Shown here one piece after another: positions 1,425-28,665 of a DNA stretch of 29,437 nt. The position numbers were made by a program, and so were the translations under genes. The notes below the pieces were generated by a model. That model worked only from the letters and a program-made list of their open reading frames with translations, was not told where the DNA came from and made no database searches. The first letter of the stretch is position 1. The number at the start of each line of letters is the position of its first letter. The stretch comes from a virus. The stretch covers positions 1-29,437 of the IMG/VR virus record IMGVR_UViG_3300034272_000285. One strand, written 5' to 3'.

Positions 1425-1435
1425 TATGGTATACT
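1408..1435 (+). promoter_or_regulatory. Extended -10 promoter giving a probable leaderless transcript
   Basis: TGG followed by TATACT (hexamer 1430-1435) forms an extended -10 element. A weak -35, TTGTTG at 1408-1413, lies 16 bases upstream. The expected start of transcription, about seven bases past the hexamer, falls at 1442-1443, next to ATG 1443. No Shine-Dalgarno sequence precedes the ATG. The same arrangement recurs at 9930-9945 and 27302-27317. Confidence 0.55.
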
Positions 1436-1442
1436 TGTGGTT

Positions 1443-1829
1443 ATGGATTCTTTAATTAACCCAAAAACTGGTGAACCAATTGTAAAAAACGTTAGACGAC
1501 AAGTCATTGAAAAGAACTATGACTGGGGTCTTTATGTGTATAAAAAGGCAAACGGCAAGTGGTTCACAGATGGCAATGGCTCTGTGCTTAACATTCCTTC
1601 AGATAAAAATGATATTTCAAGAATGGCAGAACTCAAAAAGACTGCCATGCACTATGGAGATCCAGGAGATGGCACATGTGTATTTGTTCCAGGACTAACA
1701 AGAGTTTCTGAAGAAGAGTATTCTGAGCAAGTTGATAGATTAAATGCTGGGCTTATTCCTTCTCTAAATGACCTTGGAGCAGTACAGGCAGCCAAGGACA
1801 CTATTGCTAAATATGGAGATGAGGAGTAA
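1443..1829 (+). CDS. Small conserved-type phage protein of unknown function (between tail-like gene and portal)
   Basis: A 128-residue soluble protein (130 if GTG 1437 is used). I prefer ATG 1443 because a TATACT -10 box ends at 1435 and puts the transcription start at the ATG, and because no ribosome binding site serves either start. The sequence starts MDSLINPKTGEPI, continues with a compact Trp/Tyr-rich stretch (YDWGLYVYKKANGKWF) and ends in a charged helical tail. No signal peptide, membrane segment or catalytic motif is visible. It ends three bases before the portal start, so it is probably translated together with the portal. Its position suggests a head or packaging accessory role, but that is inference; I do not recognise the family. 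Confidence 0.7.
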   Translation: MDSLINPKTGEPIVKNVRRQVIEKNYDWGLYVYKKANGKWFTDGNGSVLNIPSDKNDISRMAELKKTAMHYGDPGDGTCVFVPGLTRVSEEEYSEQVDRLNAGLIPSLNDLGAVQAAKDTIAKYGDEE

Positions 1830-9156: not shown

Positions 9157-9206
9157 TATAGCGAGGAAACAACCCCCTTTTAATAAAAATGAAAGAGGTG
9201 AGATAT

Positions 9207-9872
9207 ATGGCATACAGCCGTGGTTCAAGTAGTAACATTATCGTGGGTGCAGCAGCACTTTTTACACATAATGCAGGTCCACTAGGATTGGTATCATCTG
9301 GTGCTAATGCAGGAAAGATTACTGATGCTCAAGCAGCAACAGACCTTCCAGATTTAGCAGCAAGTGCAACATCCTACAAGGATGCATTGACATCAGACAA
9401 TGCGTTCACAAATATCGGTTACACATCAAATGGTTTGGAACTAGCGTTCGAACCAGATTTTGGTGAGGTAGCAGTAGATCAACTTCTCGACGTTGCTCGT
9501 TTGTTCAAGCAAGGTATGACAGTTAATTTAAATACATCTTTTGCAGAGGCAACACTAGAAAATCTTCTAGTAGCAATTGCAGCAGATACAGACGATCTAG
9601 ATGATTCAGTCGCAGGTCTTGTAGACATGAGAATGTCTGCAGGAGATATCGGTGACGTTCCACTAGAGCGTGGAATCGTAGCAGTAGGACCAGGTTCTGG
9701 TTCTGCACTAGATCCAAAGGAAAGAATCTATGTTGCATACCGTGCACTCTCAATCGAGAGCGTAACAGTATCAGCAAAGCGTGACGAGGCTTCAATGTTT
9801 GAAGTTTCATTCCGACTTCTTCCAAACGATGACGCATCATACGGTAAGATCGTAGACCGTTCACTCGTATAA
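9207..9872 (+). CDS. Major tail (tube) protein
   Basis: A 221-residue protein that would stack as rings to form the tail tube. It opens MAYSRGSSSNIIVGAAALF, followed by NIGYTSNGLELAFEPDFGEV, and ends with a strand-rich part including RALSIESVTVSAKRDEASM. Small size, beta-rich pattern, position before the tail chaperones and tape measure, and its own promoter and terminator all fit. I prefer ATG 9207 over ATG 9189 because AGAGGTGA sits five bases before it, and 9189 has no site. Arginine codons are mostly CGT (six of nine), a sign of high expression shared with the capsid gene. Confidence 0.85.
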   Translation: MAYSRGSSSNIIVGAAALFTHNAGPLGLVSSGANAGKITDAQAATDLPDLAASATSYKDALTSDNAFTNIGYTSNGLELAFEPDFGEVAVDQLLDVARLFKQGMTVNLNTSFAEATLENLLVAIAADTDDLDDSVAGLVDMRMSAGDIGDVPLERGIVAVGPGSGSALDPKERIYVAYRALSIESVTVSAKRDEASMFEVSFRLLPNDDASYGKIVDRSLV

Positions 9873-9889
9873 TACAACTCAATAGGACG

Positions 9890-9920
9890 AGCCCAGACCC
9901 TTGAAAGTCTGGGCTTTTCC
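9890..9920 (+). terminator. Rho-independent terminator after the major tail gene
   Basis: AGCCCAGAC (9890-9898) pairs without mismatch with GTCTGGGCT (9907-9915) around an eight-base loop, followed by TTT and a T-rich stretch to about 9930. A classical terminator, 17 bases past the stop. Confidence 0.9.
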
Positions 9921-9929
9921 ATTTCCATT

Positions 9930-9938
9930 TGGTATACT
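9930..9938 (+). promoter_or_regulatory. Extended -10 promoter giving a leaderless transcript
   Basis: TGG followed by TATACT (9933-9938), then six bases TATATA, then ATG 9945. The expected transcription start is the A of the ATG itself. No Shine-Dalgarno sequence is present; the upstream sequence is the T-rich tail of the terminator, so readthrough is not the likely source of this mRNA. Confidence 0.7.
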
Positions 9939-9944
9939 TATATA

Positions 9945-10625
9945 ATGGCAACCAGCATATATCCAAAAAGAAAGTTTTATTTTGTAGACAGGACAGAGAT
10001 TAATGCTGGGCCCCTTAAAATAAAGCACCTTAGAGATTTTCTAGAAACCTTTGAGCCAATCAAAGAAGCAAAAACAGACAATGAGTCAATATCTATTTTA
10101 GTTGACTGTGCTTTAATAGCAATGAAGCAGTATGCCCCACATATTAAAACGGTAGAAGACCTTGAAGATAATTTAGACCTTCCAACAATTTATGAGGTTT
10201 TAGACATAGCAGCAGGAATTAAAATTAATCAAAAATCAGAAGAGCCAGTAAAATCTCAAGCAGTAGAAAGTGGCTCATCATGGGAGACCCTAGATTTAGC
10301 AAAACTGGAGTCAGAGGTTTTTGTTCTTGGAATATGGAAAGATTATGAAGAACTAGAAGAGTCTTTATCTATGGCAGAACTAAGTGCAACACTTGAAATA
10401 AAAAGAGAACTAGAATATAATGATAAAAAGTTTTTTGCTGCAATGAAGGGTATTGATTTAGATAAGCAGTCAAAGAAGGGCAACGAATGGGAAGACATGA
10501 AAGCCAGGGTATTTAGCAAAGGCAAGGCAACAGATGGAAGCGACATTATGGCTCTGCAGGGCAAGAATGCAGAAAGGGCTGGGTTTGGAATTGGAATGGG
10601 CCTCACTTACGAGGTTTACGAATAG
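9945..10625 (+). CDS. Tail assembly chaperone, long form (fused G-T type)
   Basis: A 226-residue protein thought to hold the tape measure and guide tube assembly. Residues 20-95 (PLKIKHLRDFLETF to LDLPTIYEVLDIAAGIKI) form the G-like domain and are clearly related to the next gene. Residues 135-226 (DYEELEESLSMAELSATLEI, KKFFAAMKGIDLDKQS, then ALQGKNAERAGFGIGMGL) are a second domain of the type found in actinophage tail chaperones. In most siphoviruses the longer chaperone is made by a ribosomal frameshift; here both parts are in one open frame and no frameshift is needed. Translation appears leaderless. The stop TAG is followed by a promoter for the short form. Confidence 0.82.
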   Translation: MATSIYPKRKFYFVDRTEINAGPLKIKHLRDFLETFEPIKEAKTDNESISILVDCALIAMKQYAPHIKTVEDLEDNLDLPTIYEVLDIAAGIKINQKSEEPVKSQAVESGSSWETLDLAKLESEVFVLGIWKDYEELEESLSMAELSATLEIKRELEYNDKKFFAAMKGIDLDKQSKKGNEWEDMKARVFSKGKATDGSDIMALQGKNAERAGFGIGMGLTYEVYE

Positions 10626-10646: not shown

Positions 10647-10655
10647 TGGTATAAT
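10647..10655 (+). promoter_or_regulatory. Extended -10 promoter before the short chaperone and tape measure
   Basis: TGG followed by TATAAT (10650-10655). Transcription would start near 10662, giving a leader of about 19 bases with AAGGAGG (10670-10676) before ATG 10681. No -35 is evident. It could feed the tape measure and tail-tip genes, since no terminator is visible downstream before 20181. Confidence 0.65.
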
Positions 10656-10680
10656 TAACTAAACCTTATAAGGAGGATAA

Positions 10681-11004
10681 ATGTCTACAAAAGTTGAAGA
10701 CAAAGAGGAACTACATCTTATCGATGGAACAAAGTTTGAAGTAAGACCACTAAAGATCTCATTACTAAAGCCATTTATGCAGAAGTTTAATGAGTTACAG
10801 GAAGTGGCAGAAGATAACGAAAAATCAATGAACGTTCTGCTAGATTGCGTACAGATTGCATTCAAGCAGTATCTACCACTAGTGGCAGACAACAGAGAGG
10901 CGATTGAGGAAAATCTAGATCTTCCTACAGTCTATAAGATTATTGATGCAGCGTCAGGTATGAAACTGGCAGATGCAACAGGTCTTTTAAACTCAATCAA
11001 ATAA
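10681..11004 (+). CDS. Tail assembly chaperone, short form (G-like paralogue)
   Basis: A 107-residue acidic protein related throughout to residues 15-95 of the long chaperone: both carry PLKI near the start, a DNE segment, LLDC or LVDC followed by QIAFKQY or LIAMKQY, ENLDLPTVY or DNLDLPTIY, and an AASGMKL or IAAGIKI end. The shared pattern shows duplication of one ancestral gene. It has its own promoter and a strong AAGGAGG site. Near the end, 10986-10992 reads TTTAAAC in slippery phase; a -1 shift there would replace the last three residues by LNQIKKKVLMSG and stop at 11030, past the tape measure start. The stop in frame is 11002-11004. Confidence 0.85.
   Translation: MSTKVEDKEELHLIDGTKFEVRPLKISLLKPFMQKFNELQEVAEDNEKSMNVLLDCVQIAFKQYLPLVADNREAIEENLDLPTVYKIIDAASGMKLADATGLLNSIK
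10986..10992 (+). promoter_or_regulatory. Possible -1 frameshift heptamer
   Basis: T TTA AAC is arranged so that the zero frame reads TTA then AAC, the X XXY YYZ pattern of a -1 slip. It lies four codons before the stop of the short chaperone. I see no strong stem-loop after it and no upstream Shine-Dalgarno stimulator, so use is uncertain. The extension would be only 12 residues. Confidence 0.35.
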
Positions 11005-11022: not shown

Positions 11023-14000
11023 GTGGCTGATGTAAACTCCAATATTGGTATTAATTTTGATACCACAGCAGCCCTTGCATCTCTTCGTAAACTCCAGGCT
11101 GGATTAAGCACATTTAATCAATCCCTAACTCAGGGTAACGTTGCAGCAATGAATGCCCAGAAGGGCCTTAATTCTCAACTAATCCAAGCAATCAATGCAA
11201 CTGGAAAGTTTGTTGCAAGTCAAAAAGAAATAGCAACAAGCACAGGATCTTTTACTCAGGCTCTTGAAAAAAATCAACTGTCAATGCGACAGTACTTTAG
11301 GTACACCGCAGCAGCAGCGACGGCAAACACAAAAACCTTTAAAGGCATGTTTGCACAAGAGCGTGAGATTATTAACCGTGCTCGTAAAGACAGAGTAAAA
11401 CTTCTTCAGTCTCAATACATTCAACTAGGTAATGCCAATGGCGACCTTGTCAAGGTTTTGCAGGTAGTTCCAAAGCATCTACAAATGGCTAATGGTAAGT
11501 ATGCCGACTATACAACAAGAGTGCAGATGGCTGCCCAGCGTCAACAGTTCTTAAACCAGTTATTAAAACAAGGATCAACAAACCTCCTAAACTTTGGTAA
11601 GAACACTCAGTGGGCAGGACGTCAGTTGATGGTTGGTTTGACAATCCCACTTTCTATTCTTGGATCTGCAGCAGCAAAGACATTTATGGAAATGGAAGAG
11701 GCAGTCCTTAAGTTTACAAGAGTTTACGGAGACATAACTACTTCTGGAGATGCAACTAACAAAGCCGTTGCTGACATACAAAGACTAGGTAAAGAATTTA
11801 CAAAATACGGCATTGCTGTAAAGGACACAATGGAAATGGCTGCAACAGCAGCAGCGATGGGTATGCAGGGAAGTGCTCTAGAAGCCCAAGTAGTCCAGGC
11901 GACAAGACTTTCAGTCCTTGGTCAAGTAGAGCAACAGCAAGCACTTGAGACTACTATTTCCTTACAAAATGCTTTTGGTGTTTCTTCAGAACAACTTGCA
12001 CAAAAAATTAACTTTCTTAACGCAGTAGAAAACCAGACTGTTCTTTCTATCGAAGATTTAACGATTGCAATTCCAAAGGCTGGACCAGTTGTAAAGCAAC
12101 TTGGTGGAGATGTTGAAGATCTAGCATTCTTTATGACTGCAATGAAGGAAGGTGGAATCAACGCATCAGAAGGTGCTAACGCACTTAAGTCTGGTCTTGC
12201 TTCTATGATTAACCCAGCAAAGAAGACCAGCGAGTTCCTTGCAGGACTTGGAATTAATATCAAGGGAATTGTAGATAACAATGCTGGAAACTTAAAGGGC
12301 ACAGTAGTAGGACTTGCTAGAGCACTAGATACTCTAGATCCACTTAATCGTGCTCGTGCTATTGAACAACTATTTGGTAAGTTCCAGTTTGCTCGTATGT
12401 CAACATTGTTCCAAAACGTTGCAAAAGATGGAACTCAAGCATCTAGAGCACTAGATCTTGCTGGAGCATCAATTGAAGAATTAGCAATTTTATCTGAACG
12501 AGAATTGGCAAGAGTCGAAAATTCAACAGGGGCTAAATTCAAAAAAGCCATGGAAAATTTAAAGAATGAATTAGTTCCAGTAGGTAAAGCATTCTTACAA
12601 GCAGTAACCCCAATAGTTGAGTTTGTTGGAAAAATATTAACAAAGTTTAATGGCCTTAGTGATGGAACTAAGAAGGTCATAACAATTATGATTGGAGTGC
12701 TTGGAGCCATTGCCCCAGTTGCACTTATGACATTTGGTGTTCTTGTTAACGGTATTGCAAACGTAATTAAGTTCTTTGCAATGCTCCGTGGTGGAATTGC
12801 TAAACTTAATGGACAAAACAATGTATTAGGTGGAGGGTTTGACTATTTAACTAATCAGCAAACAGAATTACTTGCAGAAACAAATGCTCTTCATACCTCT
12901 CACCAGCAACTTCTTTCTACATTCAATGTTGAAAAAGGTGCAGTCGATGCATTAGCCCTAGCATACGGAAATGCAGCCAGCCAAGCAAGAGCCCTTGCCC
13001 AATCATCACCAGGTCTGTTTAACTCAGTACCAGGACCTGCTGGGGCCGTAGCAGGGCTACCCCCTAAGAAGTTTGCAACTGGTGGAGTTGTTCCAGGTAG
13101 TGGAAACAAAGACACAGTTCCAGCATTACTAACTCCTGGTGAAGTTGTTCTTACAAAGCAGACTGCAAAAGAAAACCCAGAACTAGTTGAAGCACTTCAA
13201 AATGGATCCGTAATGAAGTACGGGACAGGAACTGGGAAGCGACAGACTGCGGGACATGCATCCAAGGGAGCAGCGTTTGATGTTGGTGGCCGTAAACTTA
13301 GTTTAGGAATAAAGCCAGAGTCTGAAGCAAACGTTCAAAATGTACAAGCACTTGTTAAGGCTATGGAATCTGGAATTGGTGGAGTTACCAATGGAACAGA
13401 AATAGTTGAAGAAGTTTTTGCAAGGTTTGCAGGAGACTCAAAGGTATCGCTTACAGATTTTATTGCTGAATTAAGAATTGCAACAGAAGAAATGAGTGGT
13501 ATTGCTTTATCTTCTAATGATATTAATGAAGCAGCAGGAAGAGAAGGAGCCAGCAAAAAAATTGCAGGTCACTCAGCATCTGAGGCTGGAGTAGGAACAC
13601 TAAGAAAAGAATCTGAAAGATTAGGTCCAGATCAATTAGCAGAGTATGACAGAATGGACAAGATTGTAAATGAAACTGCAGACAAACTAGAAAGAGAAAG
13701 ACCAGACTTAACAAAAACACAAAGACAGGTTGATAGAGCACACACAGGCGCAGTTGGTGCTACAGCAAAAAGCACTAAAGAAGGCTGGGCTCCTGATTTT
13801 TATGATCTTGGAACACATAATGAAAATGAAATGTCTCAGACTTTAACTAAAAATGATGAGGCAAGAAAAAAGTATTTAGAAGTATTGGCATCATCATCTG
13901 CAACAGAAGAACAAATTGCCTCTATAACAAAAAAAATAAATGAGAATGGAGCATTAACTGAGTCAGAACTTCAAATTCAAAAAGGTGTTCTTGAACAAAT

Positions 14001-17000
14001 GCTCAGAGATAAAGATTTCATGGCTGCAGAGCAAAAGAAAAAAGGAAAGGGTCCTCTTGCAATTGAAAAAACAATGCTTGCAACAGTTTCTGATGCAGAA
14101 CTGCGTGAAAAATATCCAAGAGTAGCACCAGAAGATACAAGATCTACAGAAGAAAGAAGTGCAGCAGGACAGGTTGCACTTACAAAAAGATTTGGCAAAA
14201 GAAATCAAGCAGGAGTAGATTCAAGCGAAGGTTTTGTCCCACTATCAGAAGCCGAAAAGAAAGCAAGGCTTGATTCAATTACAGTTGCTGAAGATGTAGA
14301 CGCAGACCTTACTGATGCAGAGAAAAAAGCAGAGACAGCATCACCATCAAGAAGAACTAAGCGTCTTGGAAAAGACATTGCTGATGGCCTTGCACAAGGT
14401 TTAGAAGAGGGAACTCCTGGAGTAAAAACAAAGTCTTCACAACTTACTGATGCTGCACTTCCATCAGCAGCAGAAACACAAGCAAAAACAGATAAAATGG
14501 ATCTTGGAAACAAGGCTTTCTATGATGACATTGATACACCAGAGATGCGTGATGAAAGACAGGTTCTTAAATCTTTAGATAGACAAAGAAGAAAGCGTGG
14601 GGCTACAGGAACAGTAGACGAAGTCTCATCAACACCAGCAGCATCTCAAGCGTCGCTTCTATCTGCTTCAAAAACTAGAGTAGTAAAAGCAACAGAAGAA
14701 TTAGCAGTTGAAACCGAAAAGGCAGTTGTTGCACAATCTCAGATAGTTGAACAAATAAAAGATGAGAGTAAAACAAGAGTAAAGATTAAAGGAAATACTG
14801 TCAACATTGGTAAGAATGGCGAAGAAGAAAGAGTTGTTAATGGAGTAAGCGATGTAGCAGATTCAACACTATTAGTTGCAGATCAAACAGATGAACTTGG
14901 AACTGCAACTGGTGATGCTGTTAATGCTCAAACAACAAATGCAGAGAATCTTATAACTACTGGGCAGTTAACTGATGCAGCAAATAACAATCTTGGAGAA
15001 ATGCTTCCAGCAATGGATCAAACAGGAATTGCACAGCAAGACCTTGCAACATCTTCTGCCAATATTGCAGTTGTAAATGATGATATAGAAGCAGAAAAAA
15101 GAGAACAGTTAGCACAACTAAAAGCATATAATGCTCAAGAGGCTGCACGTATGGCAGCAGAAAACGGAATTGTTCCACCAGGAAGCCAGTCAGCAAATGA
15201 AGAACTAGGAAAAAATAGAATGGGATCAGTTGAGGCTTATGAAGAAGCATCCACTTATACCAGAGATAAGAATGGCCAAATCATCTTTGATCCAGAACTT
15301 GATGCAGATGGAAAGAAGCAGCCAACAACTCTTTCAGCAAAGCAGGTTAAAGAAAAGAAGCGTGGGATGCGTAGAGAGAAGGTTGGAAGGTTTTCTGGTA
15401 AAGCCTCTGGTGCACTGGGGGCAGCAACCATGGCAGCAGGAATGGCTGGGGCACCACCACAGGTCACAGCAGCACTTGGTATAGCATCAACAGCATCTCA
15501 GTTTGCCCCAATGATTGCAGGCCTCACAGGACCGCAGGGTATTGTGGTAGCACTAGCAGCAGTAGCAGCAGGAGCATACCTATTCAACAAGCACCTTAAC
15601 GCTATGGCTGGTAAAGCAGCACAGTTTGCAAAAGACTTATCTGCAACAAGAAGTGGACTTAAAGCAATAGGTGAGGTTTCTGGTAAGGTTGGCTCATCTG
15701 AAATAATGGATAAGCGTAGACAAAAGAGTCAGTATGGAAAATATGATGAAGCAGTAAAGATTGACGATATATTTGGAAAGCAATTCTTAGGATCAGATGC
15801 TGGTAAAAAAGAAAAAGAACTATTCCAAAAGAATGCTAAAGAGTTTGGTAATGATAAGGCTGTATCAGATCTAGCATTAAAACTTGCAACAGGTGTTGCA
15901 GACGGAGTATTAGATAGTGACGCAGCAAACAGTATTGCAGCAGCACTTGCTATAGACCTTAAAGATGCAAAACTTGAAATGCAAGTTATTGGTCAAATGA
16001 ACTCATTGATTGGTCCAGATGGTGAAGACCTAAAGAAGGACCCAATGAAGACCAGAATTGGCATAATGGCAAAGGCAGGACAAAGAACTAGAGATCTTGA
16101 AACTGATATTGCATCAAAGTCTGGTTTTGGAGAAAGTTCAAGAAAAGAAGTTGCAGCACTTGCAGCACTAAACATGAACAACCTAGAACTAGCAACAATG
16201 ATGGCTGATCAGGTACAAATTGAATACGAAACACAAAAGAAAAAACTTGAAGCAGAGTTGGCAGCAACAACAAATGCACAAAAGAAGTTAGATCTTGAAA
16301 AACAAATTTCGACTCTTAATGCTCAGAATCTAAAAGATTCACAGTTTATGAATGATAATATTGCTGCACAAATAAATAAAAATGCTATAAGTTTTAACAA
16401 GGTTTACAGTGGATCTGTTTGGGGTAAGCAGGCAATGCGTGAAGATGCATACTTTGATGCATCTAAGGCCCAGGTTGAGTCTACATACAAGGGCACAGAT
16501 CAAGAGGGTGCAGCAAAGAGTTTCTTGAATAAAACCAAGTCTCTTGTAACAGACACCACGACTGGAAAATATAATTCAAGTACTGGTCAGTATGTAAAGA
16601 CTGGCCTAGGCACAGCAGAAGCAGCACAAAAGTTCCAAGCAAAAATGGAAATGCTTGTAGGAAGCAAGGTATTGAGCCCAGGAGAAGCAACAAGTTACAT
16701 GGATCTTTTCCGTGGCAAGTTAAATGAGATGGACTTTTTATTAAACGCAGGAATTAAAACAAAGGGTGCTGCAAAGACAAAAGAGTTGTTTGGAATGTTT
16801 GCAGGCTTTAGTGCTGGAGGAAGAAAGCAAGCAACATCAATCATTACTGAAATGATTATGAAGAAGAAGGATCCAGCAGAGTTTGATTCAATTATGGAAA
16901 CCCTGAAGAGCGTTCAATCAATGGATGGAAACACTCTTGATTTTGAAGTTCTTGTCAAGACAACAGGACTTGAGGGAATTGAAAAAATTAAAAAAGAGCA

Positions 17001-20000
17001 AGAAGACCTTGAAAAAGTTAAAGAAGATGCAAAGAAGGCTGGAAAAACATCTTTAGTTTCAGCCGATGGTAAGACTGTCGATGCATCTGCAGATGTCTCT
17101 GGAAATATGAAGGCTGCTATTGATGCACTAGAAGGCAACGAAGAAAGAATGGCAGAGTTTAAAAAGGGAAGCCTTGAACAACAAACAGAGTACCTACAAA
17201 AACTTGCAGCACAGATGATGTATGAGGCCACAGTGAATGATAAAACACGTGAAGCAGACATACAGTTCCTTGCTGAGCAGCAGGCAATGAATGAAGCATA
17301 CCTACAGGGCATTGCTATCGGATCTGATGCTTACGTAAAGATTTTAGAAAAAAATGTTGCAGCATTAAAACTTCTTTCAGATAGCGACTTTGCAGTTAAA
17401 AAGGTTGAGATGGTTGGAACAGGTGGAGTCACTAGCCTTGGAGCAGAGGTACCAAAGGTAACTCCTGATGGTGGTGGCAAGAAACCTCTATCTTTCCTTG
17501 ATGATCTTGCAATGAGAATTAAAAATGTTCGTGATGGAGCATTTGATGCAACAAAGCCATTAGAATCTATGCTTGCTGCATTTAGTAATCCAAAAATAAA
17601 GAAAGACATGGACAAGGCGTTTAAGGTATTTGATGGTCTTCAACAAAGAATGATTGACATGAAGATTCCAAAAGAATTTAGAGATATGATCGCAGGTATG
17701 TCTGCTGAAGATTTCAATGATATTGCAAAACTTACAGGCAAGAAGGCTATATTTAAATTTAAAAAGGGTAAGCCAAAAACAAAGGCAAACATCGAAGGAC
17801 TAACTGACACTGGTAAGAAGACAATGAAAACCTACAACGAGGCTATCGTTGGAGAAGGTAACGTTGTAAATAGAGAAGCCGTAGAGCAAGTTGCCAATCA
17901 AGAAAAAGCATTTAGAATATTAGTTTCAGAAGGAGCAAGTGCAACAGAAGCACTAGAGCATGTTCAAGACGCAGCACTAGCAGCATCTATTGCTGCAGGA
18001 GCACTTGGTAAAAAGGGAAGTGCAGAAAGAAAGCAGTATATCGCAGATCTTAAAAAGGCTACAGACGAAACAGAAAGATTTGCTCTTCGTCAAAAAATGA
18101 TTCAGGCTAATGAAGAGTTTAAACTTCTTGAGCAAATGCCAAAACTTGGAACAGCGATGAAGATGGCAGGCTTCTCTGCAGACCAAATGCAGGAAGTCTT
18201 AAATGACCCAGCACTTGCAAAGTCTTTAATTGAAGACCTCAAAGATGGAAAGGTTGACTCTAAAGAAATAGCAGACTACCTAAACTCTATTGAGGCTAGA
18301 AAGATGATTGACATTCAAGTAAATTATAACTCTGGAAACTATTCTGAGTCTGCTCGACCTGGCATGGAAATTGTAAATGAAATGTTTGCTGTTCAAGAGC
18401 AGATGCTAAGAACTGGAGCAGATCCAAGAACAACTGCCATGGTTGACCAAATGGATAAGAACAATAAGGCAATTAGAGACGCAGAAATGAGTGCTAAGGG
18501 TTTTAGAGACCAGATTGAATTGATCAATCGTAGCATTGCTGATGCTGAACGAGAAATTGAAATAAACTATACAAGACCTATAGAAGACATGCAGGAGCAG
18601 ATTAGCGACAAGCAAAGAACCTTAGAGATGGATCCTGAGTTTGGTGATCGTGCCATGGAGGAAATTAACAAGGCAAATGCGATTATGTCTAATGACTCCG
18701 CAATCATGGCTAATCAGGCAGAGAAGATTAATGAAGAGTATGACAAGCAAGCAGAGGCTCTTGAAAAGGTTGCACAGATAAATGAAGAAATTACAAACCA
18801 ACAAAAGAGCCAACTTGATATTGCAGGTGCTTTAACTAGCGGAGATATTGCAGCAGCAGCAAGAGCAGCACAGGATGCCCGTGCACAGTCGGCACAAAGA
18901 TTTGGAACTGCAACCGCAGATGCTTTGCAACAGTCTAGAGAAAATGAGATCAAGGGTCTTCGTGGAGCACAGACTGGTTTATCTCAAGAAGAAATTGATG
19001 ATGCACAATTTGCAAATGCTCAAGCACTTTATGAAATGGAAACTGATCCAAGACGAACTCTAATTCTTGAAGAGATCAGAAACCTAGAAGATTTAATTTA
19101 TGCAAAGCAAGAGGAGCAAGAACTTAAAGCCCGTGCAATTAGGGACAAGCAAGATGAAATTTATAAAATAGAAAAAGAAAAACTGCAACCACTAGAAGAC
19201 CAAATTAAAAGACTTACAGACCAGAACGAACTATTCCAGATGAGAATAGATAAAGAGGTTGAGAACATAACAGTTTTAGATAAGACCAAGTTGCAGTGGG
19301 ATAGAATACAGGCCCAGATTGATGCTAATGCTCTTGCAGGTAAGAACCTTGATGGTGTGCTTGGAGGGTTGCTTGCTTCAGTAGGTTCGATTGCAGACAA
19401 GTGGCAAACTATTCTTGACAAATTAAAAGAATATAACTCAACACCAGTTGCTGTTAAAAATGCACAGACAGCAGTAGTAAACAACGCTGCAACTGCAGCA
19501 GCAGCAGTCACAGCAGAAAAGATAGCAGCAAATGTGGTAACTGGTGCAACAACAGATTCAGCAGCAACAGCAGCATCAAAGACTGCAGCAGCAACTTACG
19601 CAGCAGCAAAGGCTGCTGGAGACTCAGCAGGAGCAGCCCTGGCTGCAGCAAAAGTAATCCCAAGTGTTCTAGCATCAGGAGAAAGCGGTGCAATCGGTGC
19701 AGCATCTATAGCATCACAACTAAAAGCAGCAGAGAAGGCTTTGGCAGCATCCAATGCAATAGCAGCACAAGCAAATGCATTAGCATCTTTTAGAGCGAAA
19801 GAAGCAGCAGATGCCGCAGCCAGTGCAAAAGTAGTAGGTGGCGGGTCAGGATTCTTTGATAGGTTTAAGGCAAAGGGTGGATTAATTGATCCAGTAAAAT
19901 TTGCTAAGGGTGGATTTGCAAAGGGTACTGATACAGTCCCAGCAATGCTAACTCCAGGAGAATTTATCATGAGTAAGTATGCTGTGGATCAGTACGGTGT

Positions 20001-20181
20001 GGATACAATGAGAAAGATTAATAATGGTGATTCTGTTGGCGGAGCAGTGTATAATAATACATATACATTAACAGTAAATGCCAAGACTGATGCAAACCCT
20101 AATGAGATTGCACAGGCAGTTATGTCGACAATTAGAAATGTTGAAGGTAGAAGAGTTAGAGGGGTATCATTAAATGACTGA
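11023..20181 (+). CDS. Tape measure protein, 3052 residues
   Basis: It sets tail length and is ejected with the DNA. At roughly 0.15 nm per residue the tail would be near 450 nm, very long for a siphovirus. GTG 11023 is the start, with AGAAGAAGGTG just upstream. Order: helical N-terminus; a TP901-type tape measure core at about 195-470 (GRQLMVGLTIPLSILGSAAA to ARMSTLFQNVAKDG); a hydrophobic stretch near 546-585; the motif FATGGVVPG and DTVPALLTPGEVVL at 684; a charged region with SPSRRTKRLGKDIADGLAQG near 1108; a second hydrophobic stretch at 1461-1525; long helical regions; coiled coil at about 2480-2790; an Ala-rich stretch coded by GCA runs at about 2820-2945; a second DTVPAMLTPGEFIM at about 2970; beta-type C-terminus. 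The stop overlaps the next gene by eight bases. Confidence 0.95.
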   Translation: MADVNSNIGINFDTTAALASLRKLQAGLSTFNQSLTQGNVAAMNAQKGLNSQLIQAINATGKFVASQKEIATSTGSFTQALEKNQLSMRQYFRYTAAAATANTKTFKGMFAQEREIINRARKDRVKLLQSQYIQLGNANGDLVKVLQVVPKHLQMANGKYADYTTRVQMAAQRQQFLNQLLKQGSTNLLNFGKNTQWAGRQLMVGLTIPLSILGSAAAKTFMEMEEAVLKFTRVYGDITTSGDATNKAVADIQRLGKEFTKYGIAVKDTMEMAATAAAMGMQGSALEAQVVQATRLSVLGQVEQQQALETTISLQNAFGVSSEQLAQKINFLNAVENQTVLSIEDLTIAIPKAGPVVKQLGGDVEDLAFFMTAMKEGGINASEGANALKSGLASMINPAKKTSEFLAGLGINIKGIVDNNAGNLKGTVVGLARALDTLDPLNRARAIEQLFGKFQFARMSTLFQNVAKDGTQASRALDLAGASIEELAILSERELARVENSTGAKFKKAMENLKNELVPVGKAFLQAVTPIVEFVGKILTKFNGLSDGTKKVITIMIGVLGAIAPVALMTFGVLVNGIANVIKFFAMLRGGIAKLNGQNNVLGGGFDYLTNQQTELLAETNALHTSHQQLLSTFNVEKGAVDALALAYGNAASQARALAQSSPGLFNSVPGPAGAVAGLPPKKFATGGVVPGSGNKDTVPALLTPGEVVLTKQTAKENPELVEALQNGSVMKYGTGTGKRQTAGHASKGAAFDVGGRKLSLGIKPESEANVQNVQALVKAMESGIGGVTNGTEIVEEVFARFAGDSKVSLTDFIAELRIATEEMSGIALSSNDINEAAGREGASKKIAGHSASEAGVGTLRKESERLGPDQLAEYDRMDKIVNETADKLERERPDLTKTQRQVDRAHTGAVGATAKSTKEGWAPDFYDLGTHNENEMSQTLTKNDEARKKYLEVLASSSATEEQIASITKKINENGALTESELQIQKGVLEQMLRDKDFMAAEQKKKGKGPLAIEKTMLATVSDAELREKYPRVAPEDTRSTEERSAAGQVALTKRFGKRNQAGVDSSEGFVPLSEAEKKARLDSITVAEDVDADLTDAEKKAETASPSRRTKRLGKDIADGLAQGLEEGTPGVKTKSSQLTDAALPSAAETQAKTDKMDLGNKAFYDDIDTPEMRDERQVLKSLDRQRRKRGATGTVDEVSSTPAASQASLLSASKTRVVKATEELAVETEKAVVAQSQIVEQIKDESKTRVKIKGNTVNIGKNGEEERVVNGVSDVADSTLLVADQTDELGTATGDAVNAQTTNAENLITTGQLTDAANNNLGEMLPAMDQTGIAQQDLATSSANIAVVNDDIEAEKREQLAQLKAYNAQEAARMAAENGIVPPGSQSANEELGKNRMGSVEAYEEASTYTRDKNGQIIFDPELDADGKKQPTTLSAKQVKEKKRGMRREKVGRFSGKASGALGAATMAAGMAGAPPQVTAALGIASTASQFAPMIAGLTGPQGIVVALAAVAAGAYLFNKHLNAMAGKAAQFAKDLSATRSGLKAIGEVSGKVGSSEIMDKRRQKSQYGKYDEAVKIDDIFGKQFLGSDAGKKEKELFQKNAKEFGNDKAVSDLALKLATGVADGVLDSDAANSIAAALAIDLKDAKLEMQVIGQMNSLIGPDGEDLKKDPMKTRIGIMAKAGQRTRDLETDIASKSGFGESSRKEVAALAALNMNNLELATMMADQVQIEYETQKKKLEAELAATTNAQKKLDLEKQISTLNAQNLKDSQFMNDNIAAQINKNAISFNKVYSGSVWGKQAMREDAYFDASKAQVESTYKGTDQEGAAKSFLNKTKSLVTDTTTGKYNSSTGQYVKTGLGTAEAAQKFQAKMEMLVGSKVLSPGEATSYMDLFRGKLNEMDFLLNAGIKTKGAAKTKELFGMFAGFSAGGRKQATSIITEMIMKKKDPAEFDSIMETLKSVQSMDGNTLDFEVLVKTTGLEGIEKIKKEQEDLEKVKEDAKKAGKTSLVSADGKTVDASADVSGNMKAAIDALEGNEERMAEFKKGSLEQQTEYLQKLAAQMMYEATVNDKTREADIQFLAEQQAMNEAYLQGIAIGSDAYVKILEKNVAALKLLSDSDFAVKKVEMVGTGGVTSLGAEVPKVTPDGGGKKPLSFLDDLAMRIKNVRDGAFDATKPLESMLAAFSNPKIKKDMDKAFKVFDGLQQRMIDMKIPKEFRDMIAGMSAEDFNDIAKLTGKKAIFKFKKGKPKTKANIEGLTDTGKKTMKTYNEAIVGEGNVVNREAVEQVANQEKAFRILVSEGASATEALEHVQDAALAASIAAGALGKKGSAERKQYIADLKKATDETERFALRQKMIQANEEFKLLEQMPKLGTAMKMAGFSADQMQEVLNDPALAKSLIEDLKDGKVDSKEIADYLNSIEARKMIDIQVNYNSGNYSESARPGMEIVNEMFAVQEQMLRTGADPRTTAMVDQMDKNNKAIRDAEMSAKGFRDQIELINRSIADAEREIEINYTRPIEDMQEQISDKQRTLEMDPEFGDRAMEEINKANAIMSNDSAIMANQAEKINEEYDKQAEALEKVAQINEEITNQQKSQLDIAGALTSGDIAAAARAAQDARAQSAQRFGTATADALQQSRENEIKGLRGAQTGLSQEEIDDAQFANAQALYEMETDPRRTLILEEIRNLEDLIYAKQEEQELKARAIRDKQDEIYKIEKEKLQPLEDQIKRLTDQNELFQMRIDKEVENITVLDKTKLQWDRIQAQIDANALAGKNLDGVLGGLLASVGSIADKWQTILDKLKEYNSTPVAVKNAQTAVVNNAATAAAAVTAEKIAANVVTGATTDSAATAASKTAAATYAAAKAAGDSAGAALAAAKVIPSVLASGESGAIGAASIASQLKAAEKALAASNAIAAQANALASFRAKEAADAAASAKVVGGGSGFFDRFKAKGGLIDPVKFAKGGFAKGTDTVPAMLTPGEFIMSKYAVDQYGVDTMRKINNGDSVGGAVYNNTYTLTVNAKTDANPNEIAQAVMSTIRNVEGRRVRGVSLND

Positions 20182-26871: not shown

Positions 26872-27309
26872 ATGGCAATTACACCAGATCCTGGAATTAA
26901 AAATGTTGTTATTAAAAAACAGTCACTAGGAAAGGTGACAGGAAATAACAAAACTGTTTTAAGGTTTAGAATAGTCGCAGAGGACAAGAACAGAAAGTCT
27001 GCTTATTCTCCAATATTTTTTACTGAATCAGAAGAGGTTGAGGCTGGTACTGGAGATTTAAGACAGTTGGGAAATACCCTATTTCTTAGTTGGGACCCTG
27101 GAAATCTTTCTACACAGATACTTTATGATGTTTTTGTTGGCTTTGACTCTTCTGGGCCAACCTATAGAGCAACAACTGGATCTACCAACTATTCATTTTT
27201 AAAAACTGGAACAACTTCAGTTAGGGCTGTTGTCCAAGTATCTTCAATAAATCCAACATTAAATTCAGCATTAACTATTTATGATTCTGGAACTGAGAGT
27301 CTGGTATAA
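26872..27309 (+). CDS. Small beta-rich (fibronectin III-like) virion protein
   Basis: A 145-residue protein. After an 18-residue basic N-terminus the sequence reads like one fibronectin type III or similar Ig-like domain: VLRFRIVAEDKNRKSAYSP, GNTLFLSWDPGNLSTQILYD, VFVGFDSSGPTYRATTGS, then a last strand VRAVVQVSSINP. Such domains are common in phage tail tips and fibres, where they help binding to the host surface. ATG 26872 is two bases after the previous stop. Its stop TAA (27307-27309) lies within the -10 box of the next gene. Confidence 0.6.
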   Translation: MAITPDPGIKNVVIKKQSLGKVTGNNKTVLRFRIVAEDKNRKSAYSPIFFTESEEVEAGTGDLRQLGNTLFLSWDPGNLSTQILYDVFVGFDSSGPTYRATTGSTNYSFLKTGTTSVRAVVQVSSINPTLNSALTIYDSGTESLV

Positions 27310-27310
27310 T
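27302..27310 (+). promoter_or_regulatory. Extended -10 promoter giving a leaderless transcript
   Basis: TGG followed by TATAAT (27305-27310), then six bases TATATT, then ATG 27317. The predicted transcription start is the A of the ATG. The layout matches 9930-9945 base for base in spacing, and both genes begin ATGGCAA or ATGGCAAC. No Shine-Dalgarno is present. Confidence 0.7.
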
Positions 27311-27316
27311 TATATT

Positions 27317-27763
27317 ATGGCAATTTTACCCGTACCAGAACGAGGACAGCCCTTAGACGTAACCTACATCTATCAGATTGTTAAGGCTGTTAATGATTTA
27401 TCGACTCAGGCTTCTACATCTGTTAATAAGTATGTTACAGTTGATACGCCAAATGCAGGTAAGCAGAGCGTTAAGACTTCAGAGGCAAGAGTTATTGGTG
27501 GCTATGTTAGAGTTACAAATGGTGAAAGCCAGACTGCTGGATCATCTCGTACATTTTCTTACTCTTTTCCAACCGAGTTTAAGTTTGTTCCAATTGTAAC
27601 AGCAACGCCTGTAAGTATTGGAAATTCTTCTGACGCTGGAAAAGATGTCGTAGTTACTCTTTCTAGCGTAACAACTTCAAGCATAGAAGGATCAGTCAAG
27701 TTTAATCTTGGCGGAATAACAAGTGTTGGCATTAACCTTATTGCAATAGGTATACCTAACTGA
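27317..27763 (+). CDS. Last tail-tip gene: small beta-rich adhesin-like protein
   Basis: A 148-residue protein starting MAILPVPERGQPLDVTYIYQ, with a short helix (IVKAVNDLSTQASTSVNKY) that could trimerise, followed by a beta sandwich with RTFSYSFPTEFKFVPIVTAT, VVVTLSSVTTSSIEGSVKF and NLIAIGIPN. The FPTEFKFVPIV stretch recalls H-type lectin-like trimeric domains at fibre tips, a guess at fold level. An upstream in-frame ATG (27281) lies inside the previous gene and has no support, whereas the -10 box fixes 27317. The stop TGA overlaps the next ATG. It marks the end of the virion genes. Confidence 0.65.
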   Translation: MAILPVPERGQPLDVTYIYQIVKAVNDLSTQASTSVNKYVTVDTPNAGKQSVKTSEARVIGGYVRVTNGESQTAGSSRTFSYSFPTEFKFVPIVTATPVSIGNSSDAGKDVVVTLSSVTTSSIEGSVKFNLGGITSVGINLIAIGIPN

Positions 27764-27954: not shown

Positions 27955-28442
27955 TTCAAGGGAATAAAAAAGTCTGGTTTTTAAACGGGGACCTAGTAAG
28001 AGTACATCATCTTAACAAGTCTAATGGTATTATGTCTGTTTATAATATTACAAAAGATCAGATTGAAAGTTGTTTAATTAGTGATTTTAAAAATAAAAGA
28101 GAGAGAGCATATACTGTAGGGCAGACTGCTGATTTAGTTAATCGTCATAAAAAATATATGCCGTCATTAATGAAACGAGGAGTCATTCCGTTTCCTACGG
28201 GATCTCAAAAAGGTGGAGCAAGAGGATTTCAGGTAAGATCATATTACTCAGAATCGCAAGTAAGAGAGATACGTGATATACTTGCTTCATACCATATTGG
28301 CAGACCAAGAAAAGATAAGTTAATTACTAATGATATTACGCCCAGCAAGCAAGAGTTGACACGCAGAATGGGAGATGGTATACTTACATATAGAAGAACA
28401 GAAGATGGACGGTTTGTTCCAATTTGGGGCGAATCTATTTAG
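27900..28442 (+). CDS. Helix-turn-helix DNA-binding protein (probable regulator)
   Basis: A 180-residue basic protein. The N-terminal 60 residues form a small domain (KVWFLNGDLVRVHHLNK, MSVYNITKDQI). Residues 70-135 contain AYTVGQTADLVNRHKKYMPS, MKRGVIPFPTGSQKGGARGF and YYSESQVREIRDILASYHIG, matching a MerR-like winged helix that would bind DNA. The C-terminus (TPSKQELTRRMGDGILTYRR) is basic. I chose ATG 27900, with AGGAGGG eight bases ahead, over GTG 27849, which lacks a site. It lies at the junction of structural and replication genes, so it may control their switch. A strong promoter lies in its 3' part. Confidence 0.72.
   Translation: MAIKKGTIESEGYNVLPVIQGNKKVWFLNGDLVRVHHLNKSNGIMSVYNITKDQIESCLISDFKNKRERAYTVGQTADLVNRHKKYMPSLMKRGVIPFPTGSQKGGARGFQVRSYYSESQVREIRDILASYHIGRPRKDKLITNDITPSKQELTRRMGDGILTYRRTEDGRFVPIWGESI
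28357..28385 (+). promoter_or_regulatory. Near-consensus promoter within the helix-turn-helix gene, driving replication genes
   Basis: TTGACA (28357-28362), then a 17-base spacer, then TATACT (28380-28385), with TGG just before the hexamer. This matches the housekeeping sigma consensus at -35 exactly and at -10 in five of six positions, and has ideal spacing. Transcription would start near 28392, inside the upstream gene, giving a leader of about 64 bases before ATG 28456. It is the strongest promoter in the window. Confidence 0.75.
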
Positions 28443-28455
28443 CGAAGGGTATAGC

Positions 28456-28665
28456 ATGGAAAACGAACCAACAAAGGTATCCGTAACACTAGGGTACACA
28501 TTAAATCTAGGAAATTTTCAATCACTAAGACTTGATCTTGGCGTTGTTGACAGTTCACGTAATGGAGAGACAGTAGATCAGTCTTTTGAGCGTGTGTATA
28601 AGTTTGTTGAAGACAAACTAACTGCCAAGATTTTAGAAGCACAAACTGAGGCTGAAGAGAAGTAA
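28456..28665 (+). CDS. Small conserved-type phage protein of unknown function
   Basis: A 69-residue acidic protein starting MENEPTKVSVTLGYTLNLGN, with beta strands first (LRLDLGVVDSS) and a helix second (DQSFERVYKFVEDKLTAKIL). No motif points to a function. I chose ATG 28456, preceded by GAAGGG, over the upstream in-frame ATG at 28375, which would overlap the end of the previous gene and its promoter. It is the first gene after the strong promoter and shares its TAATG with the next one, so it is probably part of the replication operon. Confidence 0.7.
   Translation: MENEPTKVSVTLGYTLNLGNFQSLRLDLGVVDSSRNGETVDQSFERVYKFVEDKLTAKILEAQTEAEEK

Follow-up and report, generated by a model that had tools for sequence, protein, structure and literature searches.

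A predicted leaderless start on the fused GT gene of a split, frameshift-free G/GT tail assembly chaperone system in probable actinobacteriophages

Few recoding events in tailed phages are as widely conserved as the frameshift that connects the short (G) and long (GT) tail assembly chaperones. Chaperones of this lambda type are characterized by a large excess of G over GT, with neither form present in the virion. The closest described examples for the present purpose are lambda gpG/gpGT and its -1 frameshift homologs, such as gp36/gp37 of Streptomyces phage TunaTartare (Stanwilliamsviridae), in which the short and long forms share a G domain and are encoded between the major tail and tape measure genes. 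Some T4-like phages carry a short and long chaperone gene pair with no frameshift (Vladimirov, Gautam and Davidson 2022, Virology 566:9, as described in PMC10885494), and some Microbacterium phages have no evident frameshift (PMC7302621). The current study concerns the chaperone genes of a fragmentary viral contig, IMG/VR record IMGVR_UViG_3300034272_000285, whose entire length of 29,437 nucleotides is referred to here as the window. The short and long forms of the window likewise share a G domain and lie at the same position, and the G and T domains of TunaTartare gp36/gp37 are homologous to those of the window pair. In contrast to both lambda and TunaTartare, the window dispenses with the frameshift: GT is encoded as a fusion within a single frame, G has a gene to itself, and GT has no Shine-Dalgarno (SD) sequence and apparently no leader. 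Our reading is that GT is expressed without a leader from an extended -10 promoter at 9930 within a split lambda G/GT system, to which we assign a probability of about 0.82. The box with its spacing and conservation, the lack of an SD on GT, the fusion, the G paralog with its promoter-like box and SD, and the frameshift of the sister phages can all be read directly in DNA sequence, whereas the transcription start is inferred. The features of the locus are the following:

9189..9872, + strand: major tail protein gene (phrog_2175, Ig-domain protein), its position matching the annotated major tail protein of Streptomyces relatives
9889..9916, + strand: terminator-like hairpin and T-rich tail behind the major tail gene (RNA fold z = -4.1)
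9930..9938, + strand: extended -10 promoter TGGTATACT, without a -35 at a fixed distance
9945, + strand: predicted transcription start at the A of the GT ATG, 7 nucleotides below the -10 box, from box position and conservation
9945..10625, + strand: long tail assembly chaperone GT, predicted leaderless and without an SD, with its G domain (phrog_10504) joined in frame to its T domain (phrog_10474)
10647..10655, + strand: extended -10 promoter TGGTATAAT of short chaperone G, predicted start ~10662, leader ~19 nucleotides
10669..10676, + strand: AAGGAGG, a perfect SD of short chaperone G
10681..11004, + strand: short tail assembly chaperone G (107 amino acids), paralog of the G domain of GT
11023..20181, + strand: SD-led tape measure protein gene (3052 amino acids), position and length as in relatives

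Upstream of GT, TGGTATACT at 9930-9938 is followed by TATATA at 9939-9944 and by the ATG at 9945-9947. The original prediction, made from the window alone, had described a sequence element, six bases and an ATG, and both the letters and their arrangement hold, with box and spacing conserved in relatives. It was also correct that GT lacks an SD, as the 22 nucleotides before its ATG yield an anti-SD duplex energy of only -2.9 kcal/mol, compared to -11.1 for the next gene (G), and that a terminator-like structure lies just upstream. The GT start codon is backed by homology, since GT has its N-terminal MAT in common with Streptomyces phage chaperones. For a random window position, the probability of an ATG 6 or 7 nucleotides below it is 0.046, and such an ATG is found at 3/5 of the TGGTATAMT sites on the window + strand (binomial P ~9e-4). 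Among the dereplicated loci, no common -35 hexamer was found at a matching distance from the GT -10 box.

One of the key arguments for this start is the conservation of its promoter. A first scan recovered 80 relatives, all of which have TTTGGTATACTT at an equal distance from the ATG. In a conservation sample of 44 dereplicated close loci, which differ by >3% in the GT gene, TTTGGTATACTT at positions -17 to -6 is unchanged in 44/44 and the spacing is 6 nucleotides throughout, with positions -5, -4 and -1 variable. Within the GT gene of these same loci, invariance extends to just 2/34 fourfold sites and 12/224 third codon positions. Because silent sites are near-saturated yet the box is invariant, both TTTGGTATACTT and its 6-nucleotide spacing count as support. 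Across a broader set of 52 dereplicated split-type loci (defined below), an extended -10 box precedes the fused GT in every case, ending 6 nucleotides before the GT start in 42, 7 in four, 5, 8 and 9 nucleotides once each, and 14-15 in the remaining three. The upstream hairpin is similarly maintained at <= -18.7 kcal/mol in 52/52 of these loci while its sequence diverges, and 40 have the T-rich tail; shuffled control regions reach -9 in 10/30. The box, spacing and hairpin all appear to be under selection, consistent with a terminator and a promoter behind it.

Two other readings of this region should be considered. An exact consensus TATAAT at 9941-9946 could be the true -10 box, in which case transcription would begin at ~9953, inside the listed gene. 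It is broken in relatives (L017, L036 and the L247 group), whereas TATACT is kept, and the N-terminal MAT is conserved; as a -10 box, the overlapping TATAAT was rejected for its lack of conservation, and we regard this reading as highly improbable. Alternatively, GT could be translated mainly from major tail gene RNA reading through the terminator, with the box as a weak or silent promoter. The gap between the major tail gene and GT is just 72 nucleotides, and late phage operons often read through terminators. Such an RNA would nevertheless provide no SD for GT, and this scenario sits poorly with a box and 6-nucleotide spacing that are invariant amid variable flanking bases and with a stable hairpin kept in every split locus, all of which make it unlikely. 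The promoter and start position of GT are strongly supported by sequence comparison, and a leaderless start at 9945 is very likely. The additional claim that the mRNA must start there was overstated, since intrinsic terminators leak. The original prediction also suggested that GT may differ from its SD-led neighbours in its response to the translation state of the host; GT is one of several predicted leaderless genes in these phages.

The identity of the chaperone genes follows from several lines of evidence. Residues 1-101 of the 226-amino-acid GT match phrog_10504 and residues 130-218 match phrog_10474, while the 107-amino-acid product of the next gene matches phrog_10504 and shares 41% identity with the first part of GT. 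Judged by these matches, the 226-amino-acid product is an in-frame fusion of lambda-like G and T chaperone parts, and the short and long forms sharing a G domain are present as two paralogous genes. As with lambda G/GT-type chaperones, they sit between the major tail and tape measure genes. A tblastn search found matches in 127 Streptomyces phage records, with ~39-43% identity in the best, annotated as tail assembly chaperone (Stanwilliamsviridae). The structure model of the short G matches a predicted tail assembly chaperone with a template modelling score of 0.78, and the HK97 chaperone 2ob9 weakly; in a Pfam scan, GT and G gave sub-threshold matches only.

Two further scans added distant relatives, and a domain scan covered 255 loci. 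Among these, 166 encode a fused GT followed by G, 82 encode G and T in a -1 relation without a second G, and none are mixed; the remaining seven show part of the domain set, mostly because contigs end. Dereplication left 88 loci (36 frameshift and 52 split). The -1 frameshift for the long form, present in the sister group, is absent from the window and from all 166 split loci, which are fused in one frame. A canonical slip C CCA AAY (CCCAAAY) occurs in 30/36 dereplicated frameshift loci, and TunaTartare gp37 is joined from two pieces with gp36, its slip C CCA AAT being in the right phase. The window GT reads through the slip point in one frame; its tail corresponds to the product of the -1 frame and the tail of the second G to the 0 frame. 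In the Karimac-type Streptomyces phages (L085, L137-L141), G and T are in a -1 relation and the overlap contains no canonical X XXY YYZ slip, so another slip site must be used. Both T-domain and G-domain trees place a single change between the two states (support 99/94 and 99/92), indicating that the split architecture arose once. In the G-domain tree, the second G is nested within environmental-phage sequences of the frameshift-type G; the G part of GT is on a longer branch. This is the main context overlooked by the earlier reading of GT, namely that a fused GT and an adjoining partner G, the latter with a promoter and SD of its own, replace the frameshift of the sister phages.

After dereplication, there is no overlap between the start signals of the fused GT genes and those of the two kinds of G gene. 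Frameshift-type G genes (n=36) have duplex energies of -11.2 to -8.1, a strong SD by motif in 35/36, and an extended -10 box 22-34 nucleotides upstream with none near the start. Second G genes of the 52 split loci are similar, with duplex energies of -12.2 to -9.3, a strong SD by motif in 51/52 and an extended -10 box 24-37 nucleotides upstream in 52/52. Fused GT genes in the same loci range from -6.1 to +0.2 with a strong SD in 0/52, and their -10 box lies 5-8 nucleotides from the start in 48/52 and 5-9 nucleotides in 49/52. In the other three (L210, L275 and L279), the fused GT has a short leader with the -10 box 14-15 nucleotides upstream and a weak GGGG; these loci probably lost the leaderless state secondarily.

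Based upon these features, a mechanism can be proposed. The extended -10 at 9930 would probably be read by the main host sigma factor, with a transcript beginning at the A of the GT ATG, and the leaderless RNA made from this promoter would cover GT, G and probably the tape measure gene. The promoter at 10647 would supply further RNA for G, not GT, with G initiated by its SD. The presumed outcome is an excess of G over GT that needs no frameshift, such that a single SD-led gene relying on low-level -1 frameshifting would have been replaced by a leaderless fused GT and a promoter- and SD-led second G. More broadly, one large actinophage clade may have replaced the frameshift by gene duplication, with the G:GT ratio now set by start signals at the levels of transcription and initiation. 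We put this forward tentatively, judging it only slightly less likely to be right than wrong.

The principal competitor to this last step holds that the leaderless start is real but unrelated to chaperone dosage, being an ordinary actinobacterial-phage promoter, with the G:GT balance set elsewhere by RNA levels or protein turnover. It draws support from the fact that two other genes in the window, and more in its relatives, start alike. At window positions 1427-1829 (+ strand), TGGTATACT at 1427 lies 7 nucleotides before an ATG at 1443, in a phrog_9394 gene that immediately precedes the portal gene; the GTG at 1437 listed as its mechanical start is probably wrong, and the leaderless arrangement is conserved in four large relatives. 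At 27302-27763 (+ strand), TGGTATAAT at 27302 lies 6 nucleotides before an ATG at 27317, in a gene without a family match that is conserved in relatives and for which the longer open reading frame start at 27281 is probably wrong. These are the second and third predicted leaderless genes of the window, so GT is not unique. A further, conserved TGGTATACT at 28376-28384, which may be a promoter or a coincidence of coding, was rejected as a leaderless start, as it is inside the coding region of a gene (28375-28665) with no start at 6-7 nucleotides. In four large relatives, an ATG follows at 6-7 nucleotides for 19/39 TGGTATAMT sites, in several different genes. Leaderless genes are also common in Actinobacteria, accounting for ~19% of genes (PMC3160421), and the leaderless mRNAs of mycobacteria show no systematic deficit in translation (PMC7148126). 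What an ordinary promoter does not readily accommodate is the distribution of strong SDs, found in no fused GT but in nearly all frameshift G and second G genes. We consider this explanation a serious possibility, albeit one that falls somewhat short of even chances.

With regard to the reader of these boxes, a search of 12 relatives, most of which are fragments, detected neither a sigma-70 region 2 nor a region 4 above threshold, making a host sigma factor the likely candidate. WhiB genes, present in 5/10 large relatives, point to actinobacterial hosts, which are probably freshwater actinobacteria; a search of genome contigs for a host found no relative of GT.

Several considerations weigh against the proposed reading of a leaderless GT within a split system. 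Firstly, the structure model of GT is poor (predicted local distance difference test 60) and too uncertain for use. Secondly, readthrough of the terminator upstream of GT is possible, and RNA extending from the major tail gene into GT may exist. Thirdly, fusion and SD loss are one event kept by descent rather than repeated evolution, so the link between them rests on a single occurrence, because the split arose once. Fourthly, a leaderless start on the fused GT is not strictly required, given that 3/52 loci have a short leader. Lastly, the ratio claim may be wrong, since leaderless mRNAs in mycobacteria are not clearly weaker, showing similar translation with lower predicted transcript production (PMC7148126); another study reports robust leaderless translation (PMC8485053). 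An excess of G could arise from the extra promoter alone.

When compared to known systems, the components of this locus have clear precedents. The T4-like split pair, as described in PMC10885494, also comprises a separate short gene and a fused long gene; it belongs to a different phage group, and the sister phages of the window still use the frameshift. Since a short-plus-long pair is already known from that account, the window pair is a variant rather than a new kind. Leaderless promoters were likewise predicted earlier in Cluster O mycobacteriophages (PMC4351075), where, as in the leaderless genes of Actinobacteria (PMC3160421), the -10 box puts +1 on the first base of the start codon. None of these were reported for chaperone genes, and the window box is of an extended TGGTATAMT type serving several genes. 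A literature search for leaderless chaperone genes returned incidental co-mentions only. The clade, the frameshift-to-split sister comparison and the contrasting start signals of G and GT were not found described in open-access literature, an absence that is itself weak evidence.

The finding bears on how phages without the frameshift balance their G and GT forms. The two sister groups of homologous phages differ precisely in this respect, having either one gene with a frameshift or two genes with opposite start signals, which offers a natural comparison for ratio control. Furthermore, the fused GT would clearly exemplify the use of leaderless initiation by one gene of a pair.
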